A DNA stretch of 64,000 bases from Actinocorallia herbida. Its GTDB lineage: Bacteria > Actinomycetota > Actinomycetes > Streptosporangiales > Streptosporangiaceae. The stretch spans positions 8,866,001 to 8,930,000 of the forward strand of contig NZ_RJKE01000001.1 of assembly GCF_003751225.1 (NCBI RefSeq), in the 5' to 3' direction. A program made the position numbers and the translations under genes. The notes under the pieces were generated by a model that was given only the letters and a program-made list of their open reading frames with translations, searched no databases and was not told the DNA's origin. Positions 43,688-53,104 of the stretch are shown here, piece by piece (the stretch's first letter is position 1; the number at the start of each line of letters is the position of its first letter).

Positions 43688-44059
43688 GTGGAGGAATGGG
43701 AGATCCGCGTCACCAACGAGTTCCTGGGCTGGCTCGGGACGCTGGACGCCAGGTCCAAGGCGCAAGTCGTCGACGCGATCGACAGGCTCGCCGAAGACGG
43801 CCCCGCGCTGGGGCGACCGCTGGTCGATCGGCTGACGGGTTCACAGGTCCACAATCTGAAGGAGCTGCGGCCTGGTTCGGCGGGCCGTTCCGAGGTGAGG
43901 ATCATCTTCGTCTTCGACCCCTGGAGGTCGGCGATCCTCCTGGTCGGCGGGGACAAGTCCGGCGACTGGACCGGCTGGTACCGGCGGGCCATCCCGCGTG
44001 CAGAGGAACTGTACGTCGAGTACGTGAAGGAACGAGAGGCCGAGGAGGGGCAGCGATGA
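43688..44059 (+). CDS. RelE/HigB-type toxin (Gp49-like)
   Basis: 123 aa from GTG 43688. WEIRVTNEFLGWLGTLDARS, VHNLKELRPGSAGRSEVRII and FVFDPWRSAILLVGGDKSGD match the phage-derived Gp49/HigB fold of ribosome-dependent mRNA interferases. Its stop overlaps the start of the HTH antitoxin by 4 bp. The toxin-first order is typical of higBA modules. It would stabilise the element by addiction (inference). Confidence 0.88.
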   Translation: MEEWEIRVTNEFLGWLGTLDARSKAQVVDAIDRLAEDGPALGRPLVDRLTGSQVHNLKELRPGSAGRSEVRIIFVFDPWRSAILLVGGDKSGDWTGWYRRAIPRAEELYVEYVKEREAEEGQR

Positions 44060-44391
44060 CGAACTTTCCCAAGTGGAGTGATGTACGAGCCGACATCGTC
44101 ACCGAGGCCGGCGGAGAACAGGCCGTGGCCGAGGCCCGTAAGCGCAACCAGTCCTACATCGACGGCCATCGGCTCGCCGAACGCCGTACCGCACTCGGCC
44201 TGACCCAGAGCGATGTCGCCGACCGGATGGGCGTCACCAAGGGCCGAGTCTCCCAGATCGAACGCGGCGAGGTCTCCACCGTCGACGCCATCGCCCGCTA
44301 CGTCCAAGCCCTCGGCGGCCACCTCCAGATCTCCGCGGTCTTCGGCGACGACCTGTACATCCTGCGCGGCACCGACACCGACGCCGCCTAA
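44056..44391 (+). CDS. XRE-family antitoxin (HigA-like)
   Basis: 111 aa from ATG 44056 with GAGGGG upstream. The HTH reads RRTALGLTQSDVADRMGVTK followed by GRVSQIERGEVSTVDAIARY; the N-terminal 40 residues form a helical toxin-binding region (EAGGEQAVAEARKR). It neutralises the upstream toxin and represses the operon. The 44392-44639 gap downstream holds nothing recognisable. Confidence 0.9.
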   Translation: MTNFPKWSDVRADIVTEAGGEQAVAEARKRNQSYIDGHRLAERRTALGLTQSDVADRMGVTKGRVSQIERGEVSTVDAIARYVQALGGHLQISAVFGDDLYILRGTDTDAA

Positions 44392-44639
44392 CCTGCAACC
44401 ACACCACAGCCCACGCACACCACGCCGAACCACAAGATCCCGCACACCTCCGCTGGGTCACCCCGAGTAGGTTGGAGGCTCCGACCCGGCCCGTTTCCAG
44501 ACCAAGCCGCCAGCCTGCTACCGGGCTCCCTGGCAATTGCCCGGACCGGACTGACACCGGCAGGCGACGACGAGCTTCCGATCAGGTCATGACCGCTGGA
44601 CAATCACCTCCATGATCTCTGGGCGCACCGGCTGGAGTA

Positions 44640-46337: not shown

Positions 46338-48521
46338 TCACTCAGCCGCGGCGGCGACCGCCGGCTCGCCCTTGATGGACTTCAGGAGCAGCTGGGCCAC
46401 GTCCACGACCTCCAGGGACTCCTTGGCCTCGCCGGAGCTCTTCTTCTCGTTGATGGCGTCGCCGAGCATCACGAGGCAGAAGGGGCAGGCGGTGGACACG
46501 GTGTCCGGGTTGGTCTCCAGGGCCTCGTCGACGCGCTCGGTGTTGATGCGCTTGCCGATGCGCTCTTCCATCCACATGCGCGCGCCGCCGGCGCCACAGC
46601 AGAAGCCCTTGTCCTTGCAGCGGTGCATCTCCTGCGTCTTGACGCCGGGGACCTTCGCCATGATGTCGCGCGGCTGCTTGTACACCTTGTTGTGACGGCC
46701 CAGGAAGCACGGGTCGTGGTAGGTGATGTTCTCCTCGATCGCGGTGACCGGCACGAGCTTGCCGTTGTCCACGAGGTCGGCGAGCAGCTGCGTGTGGTGG
46801 ACGACCTCGTAGTGGCCGCCGACCTGCGGGTACTCGTTGGCGAGGGTGTTGAAGCAGTGCGGGCAGGTCGCGACGATCTTCTTGACGCCCGCGTCGTTCA
46901 GCGTCTCGACGTTCTGCTGGGCCATGCCCTGGAACAGGTACTCCATGCCGAGGCGACGGGCCGGGTCACCGGTGCACGCCTCCATCGGGCCGAGGACGGC
47001 GAACTTGACGCCCGCGGTGTGCAGGAGTTCGGCGACGGCCTTCGTGGTCTTCTTCGCCCGGTCCTCGAGGGCGCCGGCGCAGCCGACCCAGAACAGGTAC
47101 TCGGCGTCCTCGGGGATCTTCTCGTCGATGACCTCGACCTCGAAGTCGAGCTCCTCGATCCACTCGAGGCGCTTCATCTCGCCCATGCCCCACGGGTTGC
47201 CCTTGTTCTCGAGGTTGCGCAGCATGACGCCGGCCTCGGACGGGAAGGACGACTCGATCATGGCCTGGTAGCGGCGCATGTCCAGGATGTGGTCGATGTG
47301 CTCGATGTCCACCGGGCACTGCTCGACGCAGGCGCCGCAGTTGGTGCAGGACCACAGGACGTCGGGGTGGATGACGCCGTCTTCGCCGACGAGGGGCTTG
47401 TCGACCTGCATGGCGAGCTTCTGCTCGTCGGTGAAGGCCTCCTTCTGCTCGTCGGTGGCGAGCATGTAAGGGGCCTTGGCGAAGGCGTGGTCGCGCAGTT
47501 CGAGGATGAGCAGCTTCGGCGACAGCGGCTTCTCGGTGTTCCAGGCGGGGCACTGGGACTGGCAGCGGCCGCACTCGGTGCAGGTCGCGAAGTCCAGGAA
47601 GCCCTTCCAGGTGAAGTCCTCGATGCGGGAGCGGCCGAAGAGGTCCTCGTCGGGGTCGGCCTCTTCGAAGTCCAGCGGGGTGCCGTCGGGCTTGGTGACG
47701 GGCATCGCCGCGCCGAGGCCGTTCGGGCGGCGCTTGAACATGACGTTCAGCGGCGCGATGAAGATGTGCAGGTGCTTGGAGTTCACCACGATGACGAGGA
47801 ACACCAGCGCGACGCCGATGTGCAGGAGCAGCCCGATGGACGCGAGGACCTTCAGCGTCGTCTCGGAGAACCCGTCGAGCAGGAGGCCCACGCCGTAGGA
47901 GCCGAAGGCGGCCTTGCCGAAGGGGAAGTAGTGCTCGCCGGTGACGGTCTCCAGCGCGGCGAGGGTGCCGCGGAAGAAGAACATCGTCCAGACCACATTG
48001 AAGATCATGAACAGGATCACCCAGGCGCCGCCGAGATGCGATCCGAAGAACCGGGACTTGCGGCCCTTGGTCTTCGGCGCGTTCTTGAAGCGGATGATCG
48101 CGAAGGTGAGCAGGCCCAGGGCGCACATCACGGCGATGAAGTCCTGGATGAACCCGATCGGACCCCACGTCTGGAGGATCGGGACGTGCGTCTCCAGACC
48201 GAACAGGAGCGCGATGCCCGCCTCGAGGTACACGGTGGCGAGCAGGAAGAAGGCCCACATCACGAAGAAGTGGGCGAGCCCCGCCACGGTCCACTTGAGC
48301 AGCTTCTTCTGCCCGAGGACCTCGGTGACCTGTCCTTCGACGTCGCCCTTGGGGTCGCGCTTGACGCTCGCCACGCGGTCCGGAGCGGGTTGCCCGCTCT
48401 TGAACAGCTTGGCGAGGAAGAGCACGCGCTTCCCGGCGAGCGCTAGCGCGACCGCCGCTCCGGCGAGCCCGATGATCAATGTGATCAGGAACACTGTTCC
48501 GTCCTCCTGGGGTACGGCCAT
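46338..48521 (-). CDS. Heterodisulfide-reductase-like Fe-S membrane protein (Rv0338c type)
   Basis: 727 aa from ATG 48521. Five or six membrane helices in the first 250 residues are followed by two 4Fe-4S motifs, CTECGRCQSQCP (about 313) and CTNCGACVEQCP (about 390), and two CCG domains with CPHCFNTLANEYP, YHDPCFLGRH, CCGAGGARMW and CPFC. This is the HdrD/GlpC-like layout of the essential mycobacterial protein Rv0338c. It probably passes electrons between a membrane quinol pool and an unknown acceptor. It ends in a strong terminator and is divergent from the secreted-protein triplet. Confidence 0.88.
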   Translation of the reverse strand: MAVPQEDGTVFLITLIIGLAGAAVALALAGKRVLFLAKLFKSGQPAPDRVASVKRDPKGDVEGQVTEVLGQKKLLKWTVAGLAHFFVMWAFFLLATVYLEAGIALLFGLETHVPILQTWGPIGFIQDFIAVMCALGLLTFAIIRFKNAPKTKGRKSRFFGSHLGGAWVILFMIFNVVWTMFFFRGTLAALETVTGEHYFPFGKAAFGSYGVGLLLDGFSETTLKVLASIGLLLHIGVALVFLVIVVNSKHLHIFIAPLNVMFKRRPNGLGAAMPVTKPDGTPLDFEEADPDEDLFGRSRIEDFTWKGFLDFATCTECGRCQSQCPAWNTEKPLSPKLLILELRDHAFAKAPYMLATDEQKEAFTDEQKLAMQVDKPLVGEDGVIHPDVLWSCTNCGACVEQCPVDIEHIDHILDMRRYQAMIESSFPSEAGVMLRNLENKGNPWGMGEMKRLEWIEELDFEVEVIDEKIPEDAEYLFWVGCAGALEDRAKKTTKAVAELLHTAGVKFAVLGPMEACTGDPARRLGMEYLFQGMAQQNVETLNDAGVKKIVATCPHCFNTLANEYPQVGGHYEVVHHTQLLADLVDNGKLVPVTAIEENITYHDPCFLGRHNKVYKQPRDIMAKVPGVKTQEMHRCKDKGFCCGAGGARMWMEERIGKRINTERVDEALETNPDTVSTACPFCLVMLGDAINEKKSSGEAKESLEVVDVAQLLLKSIKGEPAVAAAAE

Positions 48522-48676
48522 TGGCTGAAGCGTAGGGCGCGCCGCCAGCTTGATCGCACGCGGGTCCCGAGTTATACCGACGAGTAACTTACCAAGCCAG
48601 AGCCGTGCGCTCGCACCGTAGTGGACCGGTCAATGCGAGAGGTACCCCGTGTTTCCCGTTCGTGACACTACAGACC

Positions 48677-48712
48677 TTGGATTGGGCGATTTGTGAGGTT
48701 AGTCTCAGCGGC
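48677..48712 (+). promoter_or_regulatory. Promoter of the secreted triplet with a partial iron-box match
   Basis: TTGGAT (48677-48682) and TAGTCT (48700-48705) with a 17-bp spacer form a plausible promoter. TGAGGTTAGTCTCAGC overlaps the -10; the 19-bp window 48694-48712 agrees with the DmdR1/IdeR iron-box consensus at 12 of 19 positions, mostly in the left half. The match is suggestive, not decisive. Confidence 0.45.
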
Positions 48713-48783
48713 GCCCCCATCCCCAGGAGCACGCCGAGGCGAAGCCGCCTCACCGGTATCCCACCCCCCAAGGAGCCGTGTCC

Positions 48784-49473
48784 ATGCGTCGCCTCATCTC
48801 CGCAGGGCTCGCCGCGGTGGCGGTGGGCCTCTGCCTCACCGCCACCCCCGCGCAGGCCGACAACACCTATACCCCCACCGAGGCCGACTTCGCCGACTGC
48901 CCGGCGAAGCCCGCGGGCGCGTCCGACTGGACGTGCTTCGTGCTGACCGCCCTCGACGGCCAGTTCCGCCTGAAGAACATGAAGGCACGGATCACCTCTC
49001 CGTACCGGCTGACGATCGGGCAGGGCAACGTCAACGGCACGAAGACCGCCGTGCTCGGCTCCCTGAAGGGCGACCCCGTGCCCTTCGTGACGGGCCTGCT
49101 GGGCACCCCTCTGGAGATCCCCGACCCCACGGGGTGGCAGGTCCAGATCGAAGCCACCGGAGAGGTCTCCCCCGGCGCCCTCGTCCCCTCCAAAGTGGGC
49201 CTCAAGGCGCGGCTCATCGGCGACGGCCTGGGCGCGAACTGCTACATCGGCTCCGACACCGCTCCCGTCGTCATCGCCCCCCGCATCCAGTGGACGCTGC
49301 CGTGGCTCGTCAGCGGAAAACTGCTCACCCGGGCCAAGGTCTACGACGACGTCTTCGCCATCGACTGGGCGACCGGATGCGAGAACCAGCTCCCCAACGT
49401 GCTGATCGGGGCGGCGAACGCCACGAGCAACCACTTCGACGCCACCTGGGCCATCCGTCACAAGACCTTCTAA
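48784..49473 (+). CDS. Secreted four-cysteine protein, paralogue 1
   Basis: 229 aa; ATG 48784 lies 9 bp after AAGGAG, better than GTG 48778. A Sec signal peptide (RRLISAGLAAVAVGLCLTAT, cleavage near AQA-D) is followed by YTPTEADFADCPAKPAGASD-W-TC, the family opening. Four cysteines remain in the mature chain (C-x10-C at the start, NCYIGSDTAPVV in the middle, TGC near the end), likely two disulfides. It ends in ATWAIRHKTF. No membrane segment or enzyme motif is seen. It is first of three paralogues in a row and behind a possible iron-regulated promoter. Confidence 0.82.
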   Translation: MRRLISAGLAAVAVGLCLTATPAQADNTYTPTEADFADCPAKPAGASDWTCFVLTALDGQFRLKNMKARITSPYRLTIGQGNVNGTKTAVLGSLKGDPVPFVTGLLGTPLEIPDPTGWQVQIEATGEVSPGALVPSKVGLKARLIGDGLGANCYIGSDTAPVVIAPRIQWTLPWLVSGKLLTRAKVYDDVFAIDWATGCENQLPNVLIGAANATSNHFDATWAIRHKTF

Positions 49474-49483
49474 GGACGCTGCG

Positions 49484-50206
49484 ATGAGATTCCGCCGTAC
49501 CGGGGTCGTCCTCGGCGCCCTCGCCCTCACGCTCGGCTTCACCGCGCCCGCCTCCGCGGCCGAGCAGGCCTATGTGCCCTCGCCCGCCGACTTCGCCGAC
49601 TGCCCCGCACAGCCCGCGGGCGTCACCGAGTGGAACTGCTACGTCTCGATCGCCTTGGAGGGCGGCTTCACCCTCGGGACGAAGAAGAACATCCGCATCC
49701 TGCTCGACAAGCCCATCCGGGTCACCGCCGCCGAGGGCAAGGCGGCGGACGGCTCGAAGGTGACGGCCTGGGGCGGCATCACCCAGCCGCAGAACTTCAA
49801 GGTCGTGACGGTACTTCCCGGAACGAACGTGATCCTCTCGACCCTGCCCGAGATCGAGGGCCGGCTCGTCGGGGTCGGGCTGAACCGGCCGGACTCGATC
49901 CACGAGTTCAAGGTGAAGTTCAAGCTGTGGAGCCCGGGCGGGCTGCTCGGCCAGAACTGCACGATCGGCACGGACGCCTCCCCCGTCGTCCTCAAGCCGC
50001 AGAGCACGGCCTCCCTGCCGTGGTTCTTCTGGCTGACCCCCGGCATCAAGATCTGGGCGAACGACGACCAGTACGCCCTCCCCGCGTCAACGGGCTGCTC
50101 CACCTACCCGCTGCTCGGCCACCCCGACGATCTCCTGGGCCTGCCCGCCGCCTCCGGCGTCAGCTCCGCGAACTTCGTCTGGGCGGTCCGGCAGAAGAAG
50201 TACTGA
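49484..50206 (+). CDS. Secreted four-cysteine protein, paralogue 2
   Basis: 240 aa from ATG 49484, 10 bp after the first paralogue, with AAGGA upstream. Signal peptide VVLGALALTLGFTAPASAAE. The mature part starts YVPSPADFADCPAQPAG and keeps the four cysteines (CPA..WNC, QNCTIGTDASPVV, TGC) and the end FVWAVRQKKY. Compared with paralogue 1 the middle is longer and carries a tryptophan-rich LPWFFWL segment. A hairpin at 50241-50266 follows, so paralogue 3 may be read less or separately. Confidence 0.82.
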   Translation: MRFRRTGVVLGALALTLGFTAPASAAEQAYVPSPADFADCPAQPAGVTEWNCYVSIALEGGFTLGTKKNIRILLDKPIRVTAAEGKAADGSKVTAWGGITQPQNFKVVTVLPGTNVILSTLPEIEGRLVGVGLNRPDSIHEFKVKFKLWSPGGLLGQNCTIGTDASPVVLKPQSTASLPWFFWLTPGIKIWANDDQYALPASTGCSTYPLLGHPDDLLGLPAASGVSSANFVWAVRQKKY

Positions 50207-50240
50207 CGCTTCTCCGCCCCCCTCTCCTTCCGACAGGCGG

Positions 50241-50266
50241 GAGCGCGGCTCCTCGGGGCCGCGCTC
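50241..50266 (+). terminator. Hairpin between paralogues 2 and 3
   Basis: GAGCGCGGC (50241-50249) pairs exactly with 50258-50266 around an 8-base loop. It lies 26 bp before the third paralogue and may attenuate transcription or mark an end. Confidence 0.5.
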
Positions 50267-50291
50267 ACACCCCACCCCTACCGGAGCCATC

Positions 50292-51020
50292 ATGAAGAAG
50301 CTTCTGCGTCGTGCTGCCACCGGAGCAGCCGCGCTCGCCACCGCGGTCGCGCTCGCGCCGGCCGCTCCCGCGGCCGCAGAGAACGCCTATGTCCCGTCGG
50401 AGGCCGACTTCGCGTCCTGCCCGGCCAGGCCCGCGGACGCGACGTCCTGGACCTGCTTCGTCTCCACCGTCATCGACGGGACGATCGACATCGGCTCGGT
50501 GAAGGTCCTCGTCGACAAGCCGATCCAGCTCGTCACCGGGCAGGGCAGACTCGCCGACGGCACCTCGGTCGCCAAGGTCGGCGGGCTGACCAGCGGTGAG
50601 CTGACGATCCAGACGCCGCTTCCGGGCACGGGCATCTACACCCAGGACCTGACGGGCACCAAGGTCAAGATCGAGACGACGGGCTCGGTCGTCGCGGGCA
50701 CGGTCATGCCGAAGGAGTTCGGGGTGAAGTTCCGCTTCGTCCACCCGCTCGTCCTCGGTTCCTGCTACGTCGGCACCGACGCCGCGCCGATCACGGTCAA
50801 GCCGGTGATCGGGCTCGCCCTTCCCGAGGTCCGCGAGGGTGTTCTCCTGGCAAAGGTCTGGACGACCGACATGAAGTTCGCGCTGCCCAAGGCGTCCGGT
50901 TGCGGGCTGATCCCGGGCGGGCTCGTGGACCTGATCGTCAACGACCGCTTCCAGCTGCCGAACACCGCGGGCACCAACAAGGCCGCGTGGAACTGGCTCG
51001 TCCGGCACAAGACCATGTAA
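50292..51020 (+). CDS. Secreted four-cysteine protein, paralogue 3
   Basis: 242 aa from ATG 50292 with GGAG upstream. Signal peptide KKLLRRAATGAAALATAVAL ending near AAA-E. The mature chain starts YVPSEADFASCPARPADATS, has SCYVGTDAAPITV and a GC motif (KASGCGL), and ends WNWLVRHKTM. The pattern of cysteines and the W-(A/L)-(V/I)-R-x-K ending are shared with the other two. The triplet probably arose by tandem duplication and has diverged strongly. Function unknown; a surface or cell-envelope role is likely from the signal peptide. Confidence 0.82.
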   Translation: MKKLLRRAATGAAALATAVALAPAAPAAAENAYVPSEADFASCPARPADATSWTCFVSTVIDGTIDIGSVKVLVDKPIQLVTGQGRLADGTSVAKVGGLTSGELTIQTPLPGTGIYTQDLTGTKVKIETTGSVVAGTVMPKEFGVKFRFVHPLVLGSCYVGTDAAPITVKPVIGLALPEVREGVLLAKVWTTDMKFALPKASGCGLIPGGLVDLIVNDRFQLPNTAGTNKAAWNWLVRHKTM

Positions 51021-51027
51021 CCCTTCT

Positions 51028-51100
51028 GGCCGCCTTCGGGCGGCCTGACCAGGCCGAACGGGCCCGCCGCCTGCCCCCCGACAGGCATGGCGGGCCCGTT
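51028..51100 (+). terminator. Two consecutive hairpins after the secreted triplet
   Basis: GGCCGCC-TTC-GGGCGGCC at 51028-51045, then AACGGGCCCGCC (51057-51068) with its exact complement at 51089-51100 followed by CTTCGTTT. The second is a clear terminator before the dnaK promoter. Confidence 0.85.

Positions 51101-51265: not shown

Positions 51266-53100
<1,835 letters not shown>

Positions 53101-53104
<4 letters not shown>

Follow-up and report, generated by a model that had tools for sequence, protein, structure and literature searches.

Three exported-type four-cysteine paralogues beside an EtfD-type reductase gene in Actinocorallia herbida as possible lipid carriers

A 64,000-nucleotide stretch of the Actinocorallia herbida genome (contig NZ_RJKE01000001.1, positions 8,866,001 to 8,930,000, hereafter the window) holds, between an EtfD-type reductase gene and dnaK, three consecutive genes (P0001, P0002 and P0003) which probably encode exported four-cysteine paralogues without a curated family. 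We tentatively read this trio as exported carriers that would bind lipids, such as fatty acids, destined for uptake and β-oxidation, a possibility which we rate as real but somewhat short of probable. A lipid role is suggested by gene neighbourhood, fold class and the absence of conserved catalytic-type residues, and is carried over to the trio mainly through synteny with EtfD.

All three genes lie on the plus strand, and their products align over the whole length, with a signal-peptide-like opening stretch (judged by eye), the opening motif Y-x-P-x-x-ADF-x-x-CPA-x-PA and four cysteines at equivalent alignment columns. This agrees with the first-pass annotation of the window, which had described three consecutive signal-peptide genes of common plan between two core loci, a placement that also held. 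The two further motifs it listed are common to the trio, in the forms C-[YT]-[IV]-G-[ST]-D and W-[AL]-[IV]-R-x-K, with the correction that P0003 has V for I in the former. P0002 and P0003 are 33 and 41% identical to P0001, and P0003 as query retrieved the other two proteins at E 1.9e-42 and 7.4e-39. That no known family had been recognised was likewise upheld: searches of Pfam and NCBIfam (the trio and seven relatives) and of PHROGs (the trio and three relatives) gave only matches far below threshold, and the trio had no match to the PDB by sequence up to E 10.

By profile match over nearly its whole length the trio fits a four-cysteine protein family which, judged from its sequences, is real, old, unnamed, widely distributed and probably exported. 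The trio's own profile picked up relatives down to E 2.3e-7, although it finds only six of 60. A 15-sequence profile had a match in 88 of the 345 genomes of the window's order, in nine of 396 from across the phylum (both counts include the window's genome) and in 78 of 249 genomes of taxonomic family f20, all of these being lower bounds where only 6–10 candidates per genome were scored; f20 is taken for the Streptomycetaceae, and genera g54 and g82 for Streptomyces and Actinomadura. Looking for relatives and copy number in other actinomycetes, as the first-pass annotation had proposed, thus uncovered a large family, which is single-copy in most matching f20 genomes and often multi-copy in g82, some genomes having at least seven copies, as many as the candidates scored there. 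The window's genome (9.8 Mb) itself also carries a fourth and more distantly related copy at 4.1 Mb from the trio, flanked by thioesterase and fatty-acid desaturase genes (locus L065); a phage origin was considered and discarded, this copy having no match in 50,697 phage records. P0003 also has matches on two Rhodococcus plasmids and one Streptomyces plasmid, and a mce-linked relative used as query found six Rhodococcus plasmids.

Clustering of the neighbouring genes around 38 fetched loci and L050, with names from Pfam and NCBIfam, pointed to lipid genes. One neighbour set (Pfam) comprised the MlaE permease, Mce4_CUP1/MlaD, a PucR-type regulator, an ATP-binding cassette (ABC) ATPase and DUF6801. 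Across 20 near-complete genomes (1–3 contigs, of which C1 alone served for the placements), picked for few contigs and presence of a family gene and not at random, 14 of the 32 family loci lay within 20 kb of an MlaE permease gene, compared with a mean of 0.47 and a maximum of five over 20,000 draws of random placement. Tandem copies less than 5 kb apart were merged here and a gene split in G278 entered the count as one; two further genomes of the 22 searched (G348 and G847, with two family loci and no MlaE) were left out, and including them gives 14/34. All eight family loci of genus g54 were near MlaE. Loci among L050 and L065–L102 served to build the neighbour models; in 80 later loci, which we chose from the listed matches, MCE genes were present at 13 of 40 f20 loci and 15 of 40 loci from the window's own taxonomic family, compared with none of 20 control stretches, all from f20. 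Every one of the 13 MCE-bearing f20 loci also has DUF6801 and a PucR-type regulator gene, with DUF6801 absent from the other 27, and in f20, 21 of the 24 family genes found on one contig with MlaE are no more than 6 kb from it. In L175 the family gene comes after MCE genes and four small genes of the same strand, with a gap to the last of at most about 120 bases. DUF6801 proteins encoded alongside mce operons and four-cysteine genes are exemplified by L085:8601-10109 and L084:5123-6520.

A second unnamed family of small secreted proteins (about 200–240 amino acids, here family B; examples in Table 1) was seen beside the four-cysteine genes. Genes for it occur at 65 of 116 four-cysteine loci and at none of 20 controls, a count obtained with an iterated profile and including loci used for the model (the first profile gave 10/44 and 32/69), and in 45 of these 65 loci at most 160 bases separate the two open frames. 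None of the four example genes scanned of the five passed a curated Pfam cut-off. On one Rhodococcus plasmid, two four-cysteine genes stand beside a cutinase gene, which lies upstream, and are followed by a family-B gene.

For the trio itself the connection to lipid metabolism runs through its divergent neighbour. The reductase matches PDB entry 9ojn_A (E 1.9e-258), which is labelled iron-sulfur-binding reductase and which, going by passages of a 2026 structure paper (PMC13083937) and the Pfam domains, we infer to be mycobacterial EtfD. EtfD of M. tuberculosis is reported to be needed for β-oxidation and for growth on fatty acids and cholesterol (PMC8593149). In a tree of 147 family members with at least 150 matched profile positions (shorter relatives were excluded beforehand), a clade with support 0.997 unites the trio and its Actinocorallia orthologues with single genes from two further genera (L072, L074 and L101), and the latter group with P0001 (0.993). 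Since these three genes also sit between EtfD and dnaK, P0001 looks like the old copy and P0002 and P0003 like Actinocorallia duplicates, the branching of the latter two having a support of 0.114. At L101, dnaK and the family gene are separated by genes for a thiolase and a 3-hydroxyacyl-CoA dehydrogenase. More widely, a second neighbour set (Pfam, NCBIfam) held thiolase, acyl-CoA ligase, ChsH2-like and TetR genes: the first three occur within about 6 kb of the family gene at L076, and among loci of the own taxonomic family 8/69 have an acyl-CoA ligase and 10/69 a thiolase gene. At L068, genes of type II fatty acid synthesis (FAS-II) are about 3 kb away. A further electron-transfer flavoprotein link was noted at L138:3801-5666, where such genes (Pfam) lie about 3.4 kb from an f20 family member.

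With regard to conserved positions, loss of the cysteines in relatives, which the first-pass annotation had named as part of what would refute its reading, was not seen: all four are kept in each of the 147 full-length aligned members and in eight Actinocorallia proteins. The third cysteine is followed by C-x-x-G....P, with G161 (P0003 numbering) in 146 and P166 in 145 of the 147, and P223 is nearly invariant as well. In the mature part, the columns conserved in at least 70% of members hold Cys, Pro, Gly and apolar residues; besides Cys, the polar ones are one Asp (D193), two Asn and one Tyr. Ser, His, Glu and Lys are absent from this set, and because no catalytic-type residues are conserved, binding suits the family better than catalysis. 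Distant relatives outside the class (L090, L091 and L092) retain only the C-terminal half of the domain, which carries the last two cysteines, and continue into PKD-like and Thr-rich parts; this suggests that the cysteines may pair 1–2 and 3–4.

AlphaFold models built from eight sequences are mostly β, with two short helices each: 13 strands for P0003 (predicted local distance difference test score, pLDDT, 81.0; predicted template modelling score, pTM, 0.76) and 12 for P0002 (pLDDT 73.5, pTM 0.66). Foldseek comparison of either model with the PDB gave no match at E 0.001 or better, nor did a search of one model against the viral models of BFVD; the best E-values were 0.034 (P0003) and 0.0092 (P0002), with template modelling (TM) scores of at most 0.35 among the best 50 matches per search. 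Profile searches and structure prediction (the latter for P0002 and P0003), both suggested in the first-pass annotation, revealed no clear match to a characterised family or solved fold. The weak, non-significant matches of P0003 were to outer-membrane barrels, YceI-type proteins, lipocalins and LmcA.

Taken as lipid carriers, the trio proteins would be Sec-exported, disulfide-stabilised and mostly β. Their ligands, bound in the cell wall or extracellularly, would be hydrophobic small molecules (fatty acids or other lipids), which they would pass on towards uptake and β-oxidation. That the ligand is a lipid, that it is handed over to Mce or another importer, and that the trio and its mce-linked relatives serve one pathway are all conjectural steps; on this view P0002 and P0003 would have arisen by duplication and specialised in different ligands or conditions.

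Several observations weigh against this reading. The 14 MlaE-linked loci consist of eight from g54 and six from g82, so that independent events are few. Across the 249 f20 genomes, presence of the family and of MlaE is not significantly associated (Fisher P 0.11; 34 genomes with both, 44 with the family only, 59 with MlaE only and 112 with neither), which argues against the family as an obligatory Mce subunit, an option we rejected. Adjacency to an mce operon is a property of part of the relatives and not of the trio, which is 712 kb from the nearest MlaE gene, and in the window we detected no gene of the mce, DUF6801 or family-B kinds. The β-oxidation link is weaker than the mce link: acyl-CoA ligase and thiolase genes occur at 0/44 f20 loci, yet both occur in 1/20 f20 controls, and the own taxonomic family is without a control, f20 being the sole source. 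Many loci show no lipid genes (instead succinate dehydrogenase, glmS and gyrase-like genes, recognised by eye), and the locus on a second Rhodococcus plasmid is without a listed cutinase gene and without family B. Finally, no fold match of either model is significant, and P0002 has acetoacetate decarboxylase and photosystem II PsbO as its best weak matches, neither of them a lipid carrier.

The small size, probable export and lack of conserved catalytic-type residues would also suit proteins with a structural or protective part in the cell envelope or in aerial hyphae, in which case nearness to lipid genes would reflect envelope biogenesis and not carriage. The frequent company of family B, the FAS-II genes at L068 and the fusion of the second half-domain to PKD-like and Thr-rich parts in other classes fit this explanation too; however, the clustering for which there were controls is with import (mce) genes and no wall-anchoring motif was seen by eye in the trio proteins, and we consider an envelope role doubtful while giving it serious weight. 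The non-significant co-occurrence in f20, together with several clades that have neither mce nor β-oxidation neighbours, is what might be expected if the ligand were a peptide, sugar or metal chelate, or a partner protein, and the mce link were limited to some clades. That the window's clade adjoins EtfD in three genera and that two of three sister-clade members are near FAS-II genes both speak for lipids, and a non-lipid ligand seems to us unlikely. Even less can be said for an enzymatic role after secretion, such as that of a lipid-modifying hydrolase: the cutinase gene next to a pair of family genes on one Rhodococcus plasmid would be in its favour, but with Ser, His, Glu and Lys missing from the conserved positions it is most improbable.

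The strongly diverged middle parts of the proteins had led the first-pass annotation to propose selection on variable surfaces, as in diversifying surface proteins or antigens shaped by phages, predators or competitors. The low identity of P0002 and P0003 to P0001 and an opening part that is the most conserved of the mature proteins are in line with this idea, which did not survive comparison of orthologues. Actinocorallia sp. API 0066, in which a contig scan with two short conserved patterns found the full trio, has an orthologue of each paralogue (80–87% identical), so that the paralogues are maintained as distinct orthologues, and A. populi has orthologues of P0001 and P0002 (69% identical). 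Seven orthologue pairs gave ratios of nonsynonymous to synonymous substitution (dN/dS) of 0.14–0.50, and no hypervariable stretch, in the middle or elsewhere, was found between them in 30-codon windows. The divergence between paralogues is instead old, because the P0001 lineage holds the same EtfD–dnaK locus in two other genera, and we regard diversifying selection as very improbable.

The features of the locus are collected in Table 1. In A. populi, the other named match of that contig scan, sigma-factor-like genes lie between the two orthologues and dnaK, with no P0003 counterpart at the equivalent place; these genes with their partners (recognised by eye) lie between four-cysteine genes and dnaK at L050:6946-8633 (A. 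populi) and at L072:7869-13408, where, in a genome of genus g87, the sigma-factor-like genes are in tandem. Because a promoter-like TTGGAT-17-TAGTCT lies upstream of P0001 in a stretch conserved across three species, a single transcript for all three genes is plausible; the consensus scan did not report this promoter, and position 48677, where the first-pass annotation started the region, is the first base of its TTGGAT. The final 18 bases of the element further upstream occur nowhere else in the genome as an exact copy, and a regulon for it was discarded (one exact genome site, two with three mismatches, none for the reversed control). In the etfD upstream region, three Actinocorallia species agree in 15 of the 16 bases at positions 48575-48590 (minus strand; TACCGACGAGTAACTT on the plus strand), a candidate site for a regulator of the reductase. 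An Rfam scan of the trio gave nothing above threshold, a c-di-GMP-II match within P0003 (25.4 bits, threshold 47.9) being taken as chance. Elsewhere in the window, a group-II-D1D4-4 intron match (Rfam, 52.6 bits, threshold 49) at 44432-44563 on the minus strand lies just after a RelE-like/helix-turn-helix gene pair (43688-44391) recognised by eye.

Table 1. Features at the trio locus (window positions) and examples of family B (positions within the named loci)
Feature	Position	Strand	Description
P0001	48784..49473	+	Exported-type four-cysteine protein, 229 amino acids; lineage holds the same locus in three genera
P0002	49484..50206	+	Paralogue of P0001, 240 amino acids; 10 bases past the P0001 stop codon
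P0003	50292..51020	+	Paralogue, 242 amino acids; 85 bases past the P0002 stop codon
EtfD-type membrane iron-sulfur reductase	46341..48521	-	Divergent neighbour of the trio; Pfam and PDB match
dnaK	51266..53104	+	Core neighbour downstream of the trio
Upstream element AGAGGTACCCCG..GTTTCCCGTTCGTGACAC	48638..48668	+	Near-invariant across three Actinocorallia species
Possible housekeeping promoter TTGGAT, 17 bases, TAGTCT	48677..48705	+	By-eye reading; partly conserved, three species
Family B examples	L085:10293-10922, L079:6406-7080, L124:10118-10783, L205:12488-13135, L065:4284-4886		

The family, present in 88 genomes of the order and 78 of f20, had no curated model in the libraries searched, and we found no solved-structure relative or role for it; its clustering with mce genes offers a first testable function, which would bear on the substrate supply of Mce systems in bacteria without the mycobacterial outer membrane. 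More speculatively, and in our view rather improbable as a whole, the four-cysteine family, family B and DUF6801 could work together outside the cell to capture lipids for Mce importers in actinomycetes that have no mycolic-acid outer membrane. Secreted carriers would then load the Mce tunnel with sterols or fatty acids, and the trio beside EtfD would be a branch devoted to fuelling β-oxidation. To our knowledge, no protein is known to have the task of extracellular lipid capture for the Mce tunnel.

Lipocalins, YceI/BcnB-type proteins and LmcA, all among the weak matches of P0003, resemble the trio in being β proteins that are exported or extracellular, but significant structural similarity to these barrels in the PDB was found for neither model. 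EtfD (Rv0338c, MSMEG_0690), matched by the reductase beside the trio, has been described in mycobacteria, and trio-like neighbours are not mentioned in passages of the 2026 structure paper (PMC13083937). Mce importers and their associated proteins include MlaE/YrbE permeases, MCE proteins, the MceG/Mkl ATPase and Mas proteins, and such operons adjoin some family genes; the trio differs from these components in having no MlaD or other significant Pfam match and in being modelled as mostly β, and 44 of the 78 f20 genomes with the family have no MlaE. Passages of the survey of Casali and Riley discuss the ATPases and Mas proteins of Mce systems and contain no secreted four-cysteine family (PMC1810536). 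Among the matches listed in literature searches on mce in Streptomyces, SCO24xx tags and Mce accessory terms, these proteins appeared in no title or abstract start, and searches for DUF6801 and for Actinocorallia with mce and secreted proteins returned no paper, which is no proof that none is in print. The trio is distinct from DUF6801 (PF20611), with no match listed up to E 1. Like the four-cysteine family, DUF6801 is uncharacterised, actinobacterial and encoded in the same mce-linked clusters.

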